A DNA stretch of 64,000 nucleotides from Candidatus Kapaibacterium sp. GTDB taxonomy: Bacteria; Bacteroidota; Ignavibacteria; Kapaibacteriales; NICIL-2. Shown piece after piece: positions 49,166 through 53,564 of the stretch. The notes beneath the pieces were generated by a model that saw nothing but the letters and a program-made list of their open reading frames with translations, made no database searches and was not told where the DNA came from. Numbering within the stretch: position 1 is the first letter of the stretch; each line of letters begins with the position of its first letter. The stretch covers positions 285,377 to 349,376 of the forward strand of contig JANWWF010000001.1 of the NCBI GenBank assembly GCA_025055755.1, in the 5' to 3' direction. The translations under genes and the position numbers were made by a program.

Positions 49166-50803
49166 CTAATTCCGGGAGCGTGCAACTAATTGGTTATAGT
49201 GATGAACATACTGCACAATCGCCAAGGCAAGAGCATCGGCGATGCGTGCTTGATATTTCTTTGCACGAAGAAGGCGCTCTTCGTCTGGATTGGACAAAAA
49301 TCCCATCTCGACAAGCACACTTGGCATTGATGCACCAACGAGCACTAAAAATCCTGCACTCTGCACTCCACGTGTTGGAGTACCTAACCTTTTGGCAAGG
49401 ACACTATCGAATATCGCTGCAAGGTGATGGCTCAATTCTAAAAAACCTCGCTGGGCAACTGACCCGAGAATGTACTGCTCAACATCCACACTACGATAGC
49501 GAGCACTATCATTCTCGAGCGCAATTGAAGCATTCTCCCGTGCTGCTATAGCAGCAGCCTCATTAGTGCGTGCAGGGCTGAGCACGTACACTTCCGCTCC
49601 ACGGGCAGAATGTATCCGCTGTGGAGCTGCATTACAGTGCAGCGAGACAAATAACTTGCCACCGGACTTATTGGCTATCTCTCCCCGCCGGTGTAACTCG
49701 ACGAATTCATCACGTTGGCGGGTCATCACGATGCGAATCCCCGGCAACAACGTCCGAAGCTGCTGGGAAAGACGCTTCGCAACAGCCAAAGTGACATCCT
49801 TTTCCTTTGTCCCCAAAGGACCAATTGTACCCGGATCATGCCCACCATGTCCCGCATCAAGAACGATACAATCGAAAGACCAGCGCGATGATGAAACTGT
49901 TCGTGGTGTAATCTCCAGGACCAGGTGTCGCGCACTTGGATAATGCAGCCGTGCACTTCGCTCAGAGCTGCGGAGCATAAGTATCAATTCAGACTTTCCA
50001 GCAGAAGAGTCTACACGATACCCCGCCAAGCGAACACGCCGCAAGGGTGCCAGGACCTGGTGCGTCCATCGCACTCCTGGTAAGAAAAGCCGAATCTCCC
50101 GCTCTTTTTGACGAAGCATGATAGTTTCCACTGCAATCGCCTCACTCAAAAAGATGTGAACTCTGGTTGTGTCGCCGGAAACATTGACCCTAATCTGGCG
50201 AACCATCCCGATGTTTTCCGTCCGCATCGGCATAGCATCCAAGGACGCAAGAAATGCCGATGCACGCACAACAGGAAGAAACGGTTGGGGAAAGCCATCT
50301 GCCCTGGAGTTGTCGAGAGATGGTCTCCGCAGCATTGGCGGTAAGCGGTAGCGGAGAGGGGGTGGTTCTTCTCTCCGCGTGGGAGGTATCAGTTCTGTTG
50401 TTACCACACGGATGTGGAGCAGATGAGGATTCCACTTTACACAACCTGCAGACGCAAGAATTTGCATACATTCCTGCAAGGGAACGAAAATTCTGCCTTT
50501 CTGCACTATCGCAGGGCGCAAGCTCTGGACAACTCGTGTGCTATTGTCTTGAGTAATCAAGACAAAAAAACCAGGCGCACTCCATCGTACTGCTGCGGTG
50601 GGAAAAACTATCTGATCCGGTCTATAGTACCCCCCTACCGCACTTCCCAATGCATCCCAGGCTATATACGGCATTTCGCCGATTACCTGAATAGGCACCG
50701 TTCGAGTGCTCTTTCCTTTTAGCACAGTGAGAGGACGCCCTTGTATTGTCGCTGCAAAAACAGCTGCTCCACAAAGCAACACGGTACAGGCAATACAATT
50801 CAT
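49166..50803 (-). CDS. N-acetylmuramoyl-L-alanine amidase (Amidase_3)
   Basis: Start at the ATG at 50803, overlapping the recombinase stop (ATGA), 545 aa with a signal peptide (MNCIACTVLLCGAAVFAA). Residues about 20-130 resemble a copper-amine-oxidase-like N-terminal or AMIN-type module; about 190-310 a second beta-rich AMIN-like region. The Amidase_3 domain (about 320-535) has IVLDAGHGGHDPGTIG (zinc His), ELHRRGEIAN (zinc Glu), FVSLHCNAA (zinc His) and VLVEMGFLSNPDEE (catalytic Glu). It cleaves the bond between MurNAc and the peptide stem during cell separation or wall turnover. Confidence 0.93.
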   Translation of the reverse strand: MNCIACTVLLCGAAVFAATIQGRPLTVLKGKSTRTVPIQVIGEMPYIAWDALGSAVGGYYRPDQIVFPTAAVRWSAPGFFVLITQDNSTRVVQSLRPAIVQKGRIFVPLQECMQILASAGCVKWNPHLLHIRVVTTELIPPTRREEPPPLRYRLPPMLRRPSLDNSRADGFPQPFLPVVRASAFLASLDAMPMRTENIGMVRQIRVNVSGDTTRVHIFLSEAIAVETIMLRQKEREIRLFLPGVRWTHQVLAPLRRVRLAGYRVDSSAGKSELILMLRSSERSARLHYPSARHLVLEITPRTVSSSRWSFDCIVLDAGHGGHDPGTIGPLGTKEKDVTLAVAKRLSQQLRTLLPGIRIVMTRQRDEFVELHRRGEIANKSGGKLFVSLHCNAAPQRIHSARGAEVYVLSPARTNEAAAIAARENASIALENDSARYRSVDVEQYILGSVAQRGFLELSHHLAAIFDSVLAKRLGTPTRGVQSAGFLVLVGASMPSVLVEMGFLSNPDEERLLRAKKYQARIADALALAIVQYVHHYNQLVARSRN

Positions 50804-51843
50804 GAGGATGCGGGCTGGGTGCGACGGTGCCGTGGTATCAAGACAAGCTGCTGAATGTCCGGGCGCTGGTTGCTGCCCAGCGTCCCAGCCAATTTGTAAT
50901 ACCGTTCTGCTGTAGGGCGCCAATAAATACGCCACCGTTCCATCAAGTATTCGATCGGTACTCCGCTTTCTGCAAGAATAATGCCACCGGTGTGGCGAAG
51001 CGAAAATGGTGTTAGGCGAAGTTTGTCGTGCTCATCGCGAATACCAGCTCGTTGGTATTGTTCCTCGATTGCAACATGAATCGAGCGGATGCTCAGCCGT
51101 TTACCACGAGAACGCTTACTCATACTGCGAAACAGGGGCGCTGTAGGCTCCTGCTCTCCAAACAATGAGCGGTATTGCTCTATTGCCTCCATTGCAGGCT
51201 GAGGAATTGCAACCTTTTCCACTTTGAGATGTTTGCCTTTCCCACGCACTCGTGCATACCATACTTTACCGACACACTCAAAATCCCCAATGTCCAAGTT
51301 ATGTATCTCAATTTCCGACAACCCAGCACCAAGCATGAGAAGAATCATTGCGCGATCGCGAATGATTTCCTCGGTGTTACCATCGAGCACACTGAGCAAT
51401 GCATCGAGTTCGGCAAGCGTCAGTGCTCGTCGGTGATAGCGCGAGGGACGCTTCCCACCACTAACACTGCGGGCGGGATTCTTCGTAAGCACTCCCTCGA
51501 CGACCAAAAATTCACAAAAGCGTCGTAGAGCTGTTAGATACTGAGACATTGCAACTTCGGTTAGCCCGACCCCTTTTCCACGCTGGCGACGTTTGCGTCG
51601 GAGTAGGTAATCCCGATATCGTTCCACACATGCAGGAGTAAAACGGAATGCTCGGTCAACAGAAGCAACATAATACACAAACTCCCGTAAACATCGCTTG
51701 TATGTGCCGATTGATTGCGGACTATAGTTCCGAATTGTGTAGATATATCGCGCAATGTACTCAGCAATCTGATGAGGAGTGAGCACAACGGGCTCAAATA
51801 CATCTTCTGCACCAGGAATGAGCAGCGTACGCTTAGCCGGCAT
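50800..51843 (-). CDS. XerC/D-like tyrosine recombinase lacking the first catalytic arginine
   Basis: ATG at 51843 gives 347 aa (a GTG at 51867 is the alternative). N-terminal SAM-like core-binding domain (about 25-125; IARYIYTIRNYSPQSIGTYK). C-terminal catalytic domain has SLRHTGGIILAESG (Arg II and His), ERW in place of LGH, and YYKLAG with the nucleophile Tyr. The block usually reading T-G-L-R-x-S-E-L here is AGLSEIEIHNL: the Arg and one neighbour are absent. The first His of H-x-L-R-H is also replaced (TPFSLRHT). It may be inactive, or use another residue. It overlaps AI-2E permease upstream (11 bp) and amidase downstream. Confidence 0.85.
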   Translation of the reverse strand: MPAKRTLLIPGAEDVFEPVVLTPHQIAEYIARYIYTIRNYSPQSIGTYKRCLREFVYYVASVDRAFRFTPACVERYRDYLLRRKRRQRGKGVGLTEVAMSQYLTALRRFCEFLVVEGVLTKNPARSVSGGKRPSRYHRRALTLAELDALLSVLDGNTEEIIRDRAMILLMLGAGLSEIEIHNLDIGDFECVGKVWYARVRGKGKHLKVEKVAIPQPAMEAIEQYRSLFGEQEPTAPLFRSMSKRSRGKRLSIRSIHVAIEEQYQRAGIRDEHDKLRLTPFSLRHTGGIILAESGVPIEYLMERWRIYWRPTAERYYKLAGTLGSNQRPDIQQLVLIPRHRRTQPASS

Positions 51844-53095
51844 GACTGGATGCAGCAGAGTGTTCACCGTGGTCGTACGTCTGCGCCAGCGCGTGGGTCC
51901 AGCGATTGAAGTACATCATTAGCACTGCTGTTACCGGCACTGCGACAATTAACCCAAGCAATCCAAAAAAGTGCCCAAAAACAAACAATGCTGCAATGAG
52001 CAGCACCGGATGAAGGCCAACTCGTTTCCCTGTGACCCGAGGATCAATAATGTAGGTTGCTACAAAGTGCAGTACATTCACAATCACCACCACGAGCACA
52101 ATATCAAGCAGTGGATTGGGTGGCTGTGCCATAACGATAGCAACAATTGCAATAAGGATGCTTGCGAGCAATCCAACATAGGGAATAGGATTGAGGATTC
52201 CACACAGCACTCCCAAAAACACTCCGTAAGGGATCGCAGCAATTGAAAAAAGCAATACAGCAAAGGCACCAACAAAACTTGCTGTGATAAGCTGACCAGT
52301 AATGTATGCACGGACAATGCGATTGATCGCTACAACATCCGAAAAGATGCGAGGGGAACGGGATTCAAGTACCGTGCGCAATAGCTGCTTAAGTCGTGGC
52401 ATATCAACCAGGAAATAAAACGCTAACAGGGGCACTAAGATGATATTCACTAAATGCGCAACGATACCTGCAGCTCCTTCCAGAAAGGACACGACCAAGT
52501 TGAACACATACTGCGACACGCCTTCTAATCGTGGGATGAGATAATCCTGCACCAGTGCCCGCACTTGTTCGCTTGGTAAACCAAGGGCACGGAGCCAATT
52601 GTATACCTGCCGGCCATCGAGAAATTGCTGCGCAGTGGTAACAAAGGTTGATATGCTTGTCATAATTGCTTGGAGCTGATTCCATAAAACAGGGGCTACA
52701 AAGAGTGCCACCACAGTCAACGTCCCAATTAAGGCTGCATTGATTCCTAGCGCAGACAGCCAACGGGGGATTCGCCGACGCTCCAAACGATTGAGCAATG
52801 GATCAAAAACATAAGCGATAAAGAAACCAAGTACAAAAGGCAAAAGAAGCGTGCCTAAATCCGTCAGTATCCACAACGCAAAGAGGAATGTTGCCCAATT
52901 ACCTAATTGTCGTGCCAGAGGAGAGCGTTTCCGAAGAGGCACTAAAAACATCATTGCACTCCCATAAAGGACAATTGGCGCAAGCACCCCATTGAGTACC
53001 CCCGATATTGCAACAAATGCTCCTATGAGTGTCAGCCCCAGAGCTATCCCCCATCCCATCCATGGAATGTGATGATCACTTTCTCCACTTGTCAT
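51833..53095 (-). CDS. AI-2E family transporter (PerM/YdiK-like)
   Basis: Start at the ATG at 53095 (MTSGESDHHIPWMGWGIALG), 420 aa; 27 further codons upstream would overlap brxA. About 8 membrane segments with the family layout: two at the N-terminus, FVLGFFIAYVFDPLLNRLERRRIPR (split here as FVLGFFIAYVFDPLL and RRIPR), a long soluble part (about 165-245), then VPLLAFYFLVD, NPIPYVGLLASI, and VLHFVATYIIDPRVTGKRVGLHP. The family includes efflux or transport proteins of varied, mostly unknown substrates, and Na+/H+ antiporter-like members. Transcribed with brxA upstream (13-bp gap). Confidence 0.9.
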   Translation of the reverse strand: MTSGESDHHIPWMGWGIALGLTLIGAFVAISGVLNGVLAPIVLYGSAMMFLVPLRKRSPLARQLGNWATFLFALWILTDLGTLLLPFVLGFFIAYVFDPLLNRLERRRIPRWLSALGINAALIGTLTVVALFVAPVLWNQLQAIMTSISTFVTTAQQFLDGRQVYNWLRALGLPSEQVRALVQDYLIPRLEGVSQYVFNLVVSFLEGAAGIVAHLVNIILVPLLAFYFLVDMPRLKQLLRTVLESRSPRIFSDVVAINRIVRAYITGQLITASFVGAFAVLLFSIAAIPYGVFLGVLCGILNPIPYVGLLASILIAIVAIVMAQPPNPLLDIVLVVVIVNVLHFVATYIIDPRVTGKRVGLHPVLLIAALFVFGHFFGLLGLIVAVPVTAVLMMYFNRWTHALAQTYDHGEHSAASSHAG

Positions 53096-53108
53096 GGTGC
53101 GCCTGCAA

Positions 53109-53564
53109 TCATGCAAGAATAGTAGTATCGTTTTTTTGGCAATAGCGATCGTATGCCTCGACGAGCATCTGCGCAATCGTTTCCGGGTAATGCCCTTCGA
53201 TTTGGTACCGATGGATCATCGTCGCTAATTTTCCATTAACAAATAGTGCTATCGAGGGAGAAGAAGGGGGCTGACCGATAAGGTAACGTTCACGTACGTG
53301 TTGCGTTGCCTCAATATCCATCCCCGCAAAGACCGTCACAAGGTAATCAGGCTTGATAGTGTGGCGAAGTGAAAGCGCAACTGCAGGTCGAGCACTGCCA
53401 GCTGCACAGCCACACACAGAATTAATGACAAGCAGCGTTGTCCCTGGACGCTCCAACGCTCGATCAACATCCTCTGGTGTATGTAGCTCTTCGAACCCAA
53501 GCCGCACCAGTTCTTCGCGCATTGGTGCAACAAATAAAGGATCGTACCGCATGGCTACTTCCAT
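53109..53564 (-). CDS. BrxA/BrxB-family bacilliredoxin (YphP/YqiW)
   Basis: Start at ATG 53564 (MEVAMRYDPLFVAPMREELV), giving 151 aa, the size of the YphP/YqiW family. The characteristic C51-G-C53 active site lies in NSVCGCAAGSARPAVAL, in a thioredoxin-like fold. These proteins remove bacillithiol from thiolated proteins in Firmicutes and are also found in Bacteroidota. Preceded by its own TAGTTTTG promoter with a TTTG box, divergent from panC; the permease gene follows after 13 bp. Confidence 0.93.
   Translation of the reverse strand: MEVAMRYDPLFVAPMREELVRLGFEELHTPEDVDRALERPGTTLLVINSVCGCAAGSARPAVALSLRHTIKPDYLVTVFAGMDIEATQHVRERYLIGQPPSSPSIALFVNGKLATMIHRYQIEGHYPETIAQMLVEAYDRYCQKNDTTILA

Follow-up and report, generated by a model that had tools for sequence, protein, structure and literature searches.

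The window analysed here, a 64,000-nucleotide stretch of a Candidatus Kapaibacterium genome (2.33 Mb, 99.23% complete), contains on its minus strand, at 50800-51843, a gene with the fold of a tyrosine recombinase. The best explanation is that it probably encodes a pseudo-recombinase, that is, an ancient, vertically inherited chromosomal relative of plasmid tyrosine recombinases that binds DNA without recombining it. As read from the alignments, the first catalytic arginine (Arg I) is replaced by Ser, His II by Phe and His III by Ile; the gene belongs to an old family present once per genome and held under purifying selection, and each catalytic residue has been lost somewhere in that family. 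In the proposed mechanism, the two-domain DNA-clamping fold would be kept and activation of the scissile phosphate would be lost. The protein would clamp a specific, probably dyad-symmetric chromosomal site and may thus have an architectural or regulatory role, exerted by occupancy or bending, with neither cleavage nor strand exchange. Two ideas had been put forward when the DNA was read alone (hereafter the sequence-only reading), a DNA-binding derivative and an enzyme with a different catalytic set, and the comparisons lend better support to the former. The gene, its DNA-binding domain and the catalytic positions are as follows.

50800..51843, minus strand: tyrosine-recombinase-fold gene (open reading frame; PF00589 and PF02899; Foldseek matches to XerA, Cre and XerD)
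51463..51777, minus strand: N-terminal core-binding (DNA-binding) domain, residues 31-135 (helices 31-44, 50-69, 78-94 and 104-123 in the model)
51316..51318, minus strand: Ser184 (TCG) replacing catalytic Arg I, followed by Glu185 (gapless alignments, codon)
51238..51240, minus strand: Lys210, the catalytic Lys of the beta-hairpin, retained (alignment)
51004..51006, minus strand: Phe288 replacing catalytic His II (alignment)
50995..50997, minus strand: Arg291, catalytic Arg II, retained (alignment)
50926..50928, minus strand: Ile314 replacing catalytic His III (LGH in Xer), preceded by Arg313 (alignment)
50899..50901, minus strand: Tyr323, at the nucleophile position, retained (alignment)

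The reading frame is intact, as had been noted from the letters, and its product passes the Pfam cut-offs for both PF00589 (52.9 bits) and PF02899 (25.1 bits). An ATG at 51843 gives a product of 347 amino acids and is favoured as the start, agreeing with the starts of the orthologues (alignment A2); an in-frame GTG at 51867 would give 355, and residue numbers throughout count from this GTG. The AlphaFold2 model built from six sequences is modest (pLDDT 75.5, pTM 0.59), and its best Foldseek matches in the PDB are XerA (E 1.6e-09) followed by weaker ones to Cre and XerD, with rmsd values of ~10-18 Å. A SAM-like N-terminal domain joined to an integrase catalytic domain places the protein within the fold of the tyrosine recombinase superfamily.

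The catalytic set R-K-H-R-(H/W)-Y reads S-K-F-R-I-Y in the window protein, so that three of the six positions (Arg I, His II and His III) are altered, Lys210, Arg291 and Tyr323 are retained, and the residues expected of an enzyme are incomplete. According to the sequence-only reading, the Arg and one neighbour were cleanly absent from the Arg I segment. The alignments contradict this: GAGLSEIEIHNL of the window protein pairs with GAGLRVSELCNL of 4a8e (deposited as XerC-like) without a gap, and the segment is also gapless against XerD (1a0p). The closest comparison is given by plasmid recombinases, in which GLRTIE corresponds to GLSEIE; the canonical L-R-V/T-x-E has become L-S-E-I-E by replacement of Arg with Ser and of Thr or Val with Glu. 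These gapless alignments indicate two adjacent substitutions and no 6-nt indel, which rules out a clean deletion of Arg I. Codon 184 is TCG in the window and TCC, TCC, TCA and TCG in four orthologues from other assemblies, and a sequencing error is thereby ruled out as well. The remainder of the first inventory was accurate as far as it went, since the first His of HxLRH is indeed Phe (Phe288) and Arg II, the His of LRH and the Tyr are kept (Arg291, His292 and Tyr323); it overlooked the loss of the third catalytic His (Ile314).

With the window protein as query, all eight genomes of its taxonomic family match, G001 only at the level of the Xer proteins. An orthologue is present in all six genomes of the genus, the window's included, with 70-72% identity in the other five; that of G003 is cut by a contig end, and the G002 orthologue has 44% identity. 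Within the class, E<=1e-37 is reached by 39 of 197 genomes, and a further 13, belonging to taxonomic group f14, match at 1e-24 to 1e-18; these thresholds were picked after the match list had been viewed. Across the phylum, a 23-row profile matches 84 of 395 sampled genomes at E<=1e-40, each of them once, or 83 when a canonical relative in G486 (locus L155) is set aside. In a 99-row tree, the 86 family rows lie on one side (98*) and the 47 rows of the class make up a clade of their own (97*). Many taxonomic groups likewise come out as one clade each, but f2, f19, f22, f47 and f48 are split or not resolved. Group f14 falls in a clade with f22 and f19 (96*). The family clade thus broadly follows taxonomy, and its topology suggests broadly vertical inheritance.

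The residue table used for the comparison of active sites has 87 family rows, namely the members fetched as loci and the window protein. Left out of it are L155, four proteins from outside the family (L001, L002, L003 and L010), L012 (the same as L005), the fragment L008, three f21 members that read S-K-Y-K-L-Y (L042, L044 and L048), and matched members that were unfetched or were short duplicates. Arg I is replaced in 85 of the 87 rows, the position being occupied by Ser in 62, Thr in 15, Ala in 3, Lys in 2, Arg in 2 and Gln, Gly or Asn in one each. The sequence-only reading had proposed that orthologues with the canonical Arg would betray a sequencing indel of 6 nt; no orthologue in the genus bears it (Ser in 6/6 genomes), and in the whole family table it is confined to the two rows just counted. 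At the His II position H is found in 35 rows, F in 22, D in 11 and Y in 9, besides other residues, and at the Arg II position R in 51, T in 26 and K in 4, again besides others. Lys is retained in 82/87 rows, His III in 34/86 and Tyr in 68/86; Tyr is lost in the remaining 18, including every f14 row (11/11). By parsimony over 90 tree rows, four of them canonical, these states require 5 changes each for His II and Arg II, 3 for Tyr and 2 each for Arg I and His III; the count of 7 obtained for Lys is too high because some Xer rows are misaligned. A further regularity concerns Glu185, beside the lost Arg I: it is found in 73/87 rows, and in 66 of the 68 that bear Tyr compared with 6 of the 18 that lack it. 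Glu185 may be tied to whatever role the retained Tyr has.

Rates of substitution were estimated by the Nei-Gojobori method with our own script for pairs with dS<1, the others having dS>1 or being saturated. In the genus of the window, the pair G005/G003 gives a dN/dS of 0.078 at dS 0.34 over 247 codons, compared with 0.234 over 319 codons for XerD of the same two genomes. Values are likewise low in Tyr-less groups (one pair each), with 0.033 at dS 0.73 in f14 and 0.141 at dS 0.32 in f51, and further pairs give 0.066 (f31), 0.108 (f11) and 0.152 (f50). Frames are mostly open across the phylum. The earlier statement that the gene is not decaying is supported by these values and by the codons of the orthologues. 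The distribution of conservation along the protein also differs from that of XerD. Among ten pairs drawn from five genomes, which are not independent of each other, the core-binding domain of the family is more conserved than the whole catalytic domain in nine, whereas in XerD it is less conserved than the catalytic domain in all ten; for G000-G002 the values are 0.52 versus 0.42 in the family and 0.31 versus 0.56 in XerD. Most comparisons between groups show the same tendency when the core-binding domain is set against residues 150-284 (0.44/0.36, 0.48/0.38, 0.46/0.36 and 0.53/0.36), as does the comparison within f14 (0.69/0.57).

Tree analysis connects the family to plasmids. In a 67-row tree, 36 family rows form one clade (100/100*) that is joined to canonical plasmid recombinases (99/92*), its nearest relatives among the rows compared, and lies apart from XerC, XerD and other recombinases, as it also does, as a separate clade, in the 99-row tree. 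The plasmid-type relatives compared are those of Tenacibaculum (CP116296), Flavobacterium (NZ_CP092372), S. thermophilus (pSMQ308), L. fermentum (NZ_CP034100) and L. amylovorus (NZ_CP090604), together with L155; these six were picked from far larger sets of hits (213 and 756 plasmid records), and in the search that returned 213 records the best match has E 2e-21 at ~30% identity. They share with the family an xQGKG motif (in most), a GxRxTTR-like motif and LRH/ARH signatures. All six carry the R-K-H-R-H-Y letters, whereas the family is disarmed; four of the five plasmid recombinases lie near ParA, RepB or DnaB-like genes (none was seen in the L. amylovorus stretch), whereas the family lies beside housekeeping genes. 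The window gene itself is situated among housekeeping neighbours on a 674,718-base contig (C48), not on a plasmid with Rep or Par genes. The tree and the shared signatures, judged from these six relatives, point to common ancestry with plasmid tyrosine recombinases. One history that may be offered tentatively, although the odds are against it in this full form, starts with the capture of a plasmid resolution recombinase by a chromosome, ahead of the divergence of the carrier classes. Once disarmed at Arg I, it would have been passed on vertically as a protein that binds specific DNA sequences and serves to organise the chromosome or to regulate, and it would persist both where XerC/XerD are present (Kapabacteria among others) and in a lineage of the Rhodothermus/Salinibacter type that lacks them.

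L155 was found on a 587-kb contig of G486, where this canonical plasmid-type recombinase is near a Rep3 initiator, an impB/mucB/samB polymerase, DUF1016 and resolvase genes; these surroundings are likely to be an integrated plasmid or mobile region. A phage or viral origin of the family was set aside: two search patterns found no relative in viral contigs, and the best of 15 matching phage records is XerC-like (E 3e-14). A defence system was likewise discarded, as P0001 has no PADLOC match and PHROGs yields only two integrase families.

Other tyrosine recombinases resemble the window protein in part. XerC and XerD are alike in two-domain size and fold, but the window protein matches their NCBIfam models below the cut-offs (88.5 of 335.15 bits for TIGR02224 and 81.4 of 329.6 bits for TIGR02225) and does not keep their catalytic set. 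Among the IntCTnDOT integrases some members lack Arg I, as the window protein does, but they carry an extra AB domain at the N-terminus and have the rest of the pentad intact (PMC8138268). The window protein, in contrast, lacks both catalytic His residues and has no room for an AB domain, with 30 residues, largely of low confidence and without a Pfam domain, before the first helix. The same paper describes an IntDes subgroup from Desulfovibrio in which both the Arg and the His that come first in the pentad are altered, a likeness to the window protein; there, however, the Arg is shifted, the His is changed to Tyr and an AB domain is present (PMC8138268), whereas the window protein has Ser184 and Phe288 and no AB domain, and so falls outside this subgroup. 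Reuse of a XerC/D-like DNA-binding domain in a predicted DNA-binding protein is exemplified by ALOG of plants, a version of the N-terminal domain that includes a zinc ribbon and descends from DIRS1-like retroposons (PMC3537659); the window family keeps both domains. A description of the family itself was not found in a narrow literature search that covered few subscription papers, and the part of a review of archaeal recombinases that was accessible contains nothing on disarmed families (PMC8371274).

The relation of the family to the Xer system was traced in the carrier genomes. The window genome has four PF00589 genes: the recombinase-like gene, XerD (360.9 bits, above its cut-off), a XerC-like gene whose best match to the XerC model is below the cut-off (291.9 of 335.15) and L003. 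The canonical XerC/XerD pair that the sequence-only reading suggested looking for is therefore present, with XerC under the cut-off of its model. L003, on a 10.9-kb contig (C64) of the window genome (G000), shows the letters of Arg I, His II, Arg II, His III and Tyr in the alignment. Phylum-wide, TIGR02225 has a match at E<=1e-68 in 349 of 395 genomes, and 44 of the 46 genomes without one carry the disarmed family, the others being G153 and G287 (lists compared by hand). These 44 carriers imply that the family does not need XerCD. In the 99-row tree, however, the 29 rows sampled from their groups all fall into one clade (93, not starred), so the 44 are close to a single observation. Genomes without the match include G203, G207, G224, G239, G245, G336 and G470 (loci L175, L177, L196, L199, L201, L212 and L214). 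G203, in which a GH12 protein matches 2bw8/1h0b, is presumably Rhodothermus-like, and G312, which belongs to these groups too and has a xanthorhodopsin matching 3ddl over 273/273 residues, is taken here to be Salinibacter-like. Another recombinase of G203, with a full catalytic set, is matched in 25 of the 44 at E<=1e-25 (18 of them at >=44% identity), and it may serve this lineage as its functional Xer. In G203 it adjoins a gene judged by eye to be miaA-like.

Several observations weigh against the view that the family binds DNA without recombining it. Tyr, Lys and, in the order of the window, Arg II are widely retained, and two proteins of genus g142, L138 (G417) and L141 (G379), have a CGC Arg codon at Arg I, L138 reading all six catalytic letters. 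Both are nested among Ser-bearing relatives, so a regain of Arg I is likely, and a regain of catalysis is possible. The 247 codons behind the low ratio of G005/G003 are mostly from the catalytic domain, the G003 gene being truncated; in f51 against its relatives the core-binding domain (0.35) falls behind residues 150-284 (0.43); and when the query genus is compared with its order, conservation is highest in residues 285-330, with Arg II and Tyr (0.63, compared with 0.44 for the core-binding domain and 0.36 for residues 150-284). This last pattern speaks for some role of the Arg II/Tyr pocket, and because of it a little confidence was moved from the pseudo-recombinase to an active enzyme of the IntDOT kind. 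The related groups f3 and f4 have no copy at E<=1e-40 in the sampled genomes, the f14 branch is very long (2.47) and its place within the family is not resolved in the 67-row tree, and neighbouring genes differ between groups. Inspection by eye of the regions upstream of the gene in f14, f21 and f31 showed only promoter-like blocks, with no conserved inverted repeat or DNA-binding site, and an operator there was dropped as a candidate.

The main rival is an active recombinase with a rewired active site, in which another Arg replaces Arg I and a chromosomal site is still recombined; it would apply to the Tyr-bearing members and is unlikely, though more credible than any other alternative. IntDOT is said to have Ser at the Arg I position, and its substitute Arg reportedly lies at about the position of Arg208, which the window protein has two residues before the Lys. 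Substitution of Arg I in an active integrase is on record, IntDOT using a downstream Arg instead (PMC8138268). The window protein also retains Tyr, Lys and Arg II, the stretch around Arg II and Tyr is the best conserved in the order, and Arg313 is found in 78/86 rows. However, position 208 is Arg in just 12/84 rows and Gln in 59, and Arg313 occurs in 16/18 Tyr-less and 62/68 Tyr-bearing rows, as well as in L155 and the plasmid recombinases, where Arg I is intact. Being as common without Tyr as with it and coexisting with Arg I, Arg313 does not look compensating, nor does Arg208, judged by its distribution, behave like a substitute in the family. Moreover, His II and His III are also replaced in the window protein, and Arg II is Thr or Lys in 30/87 rows. 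More doubtful still is a non-catalytic partner that would join XerC, XerD or another active recombinase in a mixed synaptic complex and determine in which order or direction strands are exchanged. XerCD as a rule acts as a hetero-tetramer, the window genome has both proteins, and at least two PF00589 matches were found in each of the 19 carriers searched, but XerCD is not always present (44 of 83 carriers are without the TIGR02225 match, which counts as close to one observation) and no partner type common to all was found, a canonical recombinase type widespread among the 44 being matched in the 25 genomes mentioned above. It is very improbable that the gene is kept for its position alone, as an upstream cistron carrying a promoter or translational coupling for the amidase or leuS genes; although in the window it overlaps a neighbour at either end and leuS is directly downstream in 23 of 85 loci compared, constraint acts on the protein sequence as such, and the adjacent gene is not the same from group to group. 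Least credible is decay or mis-sequencing of the gene: it does lack three catalytic residues, but Ser184 in separate assemblies of all six genus genomes, the low dN/dS and the mostly open frames already refute this reading. The pseudo-recombinase would be one member of a phylum-scale bacterial family that has lost the whole active site step by step and repeatedly while under purifying selection, and that offers a natural series for studying non-catalytic uses of tyrosine recombinases. The family also suggests that the name recombinase or integrase may in some cases be given to genes that neither move nor recombine DNA.

The gene is flanked in the window by two others on the same strand.

51833..53176, minus strand: AI-2E family transporter gene (PF01594), upstream, overlapping the start of the recombinase-like gene
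49166..50803, minus strand: N-acetylmuramoyl-L-alanine amidase gene (PF01520, Amidase_3), downstream, its ATG overlapping the stop of the recombinase-like gene (ATGA)

The AI-2E gene is upstream in 4/4 genus loci that hold the region and the amidase gene downstream in 5/5; the order panC, a PF06491 gene, AI-2E permease, recombinase-like gene, amidase, ppk1 is found in 4/4 spanning loci, and in L008, which begins inside the recombinase-like gene, the amidase and ppk1 are visible. In L057, L058 and L062 too the amidase gene follows downstream, at a distance of one to three places, and L057, L081, L148 and L149 have AI-2E genes near the recombinase-like gene in varied arrangements. A role could not be read from this context, because the housekeeping neighbours (PPK1, amidase and AI-2E; leuS; E2, SecA and H+-PPase) vary by group and have no common theme. 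Synteny is retained in the Tyr-less group f14, which has leuS directly downstream in all its loci (11/11), as have most loci of f19, f21 and f22, and in two further loci leuS is one gene further downstream. In another part of the phylum, a 2-oxoacid (pyruvate) dehydrogenase E2 gene is often upstream and SecA downstream, with H+-PPase among the neighbours. The sequence-only reading was thus right that an amidase and a permease gene adjoin, and indeed overlap, the recombinase-like gene, but this arrangement is mostly a feature of the window's order.

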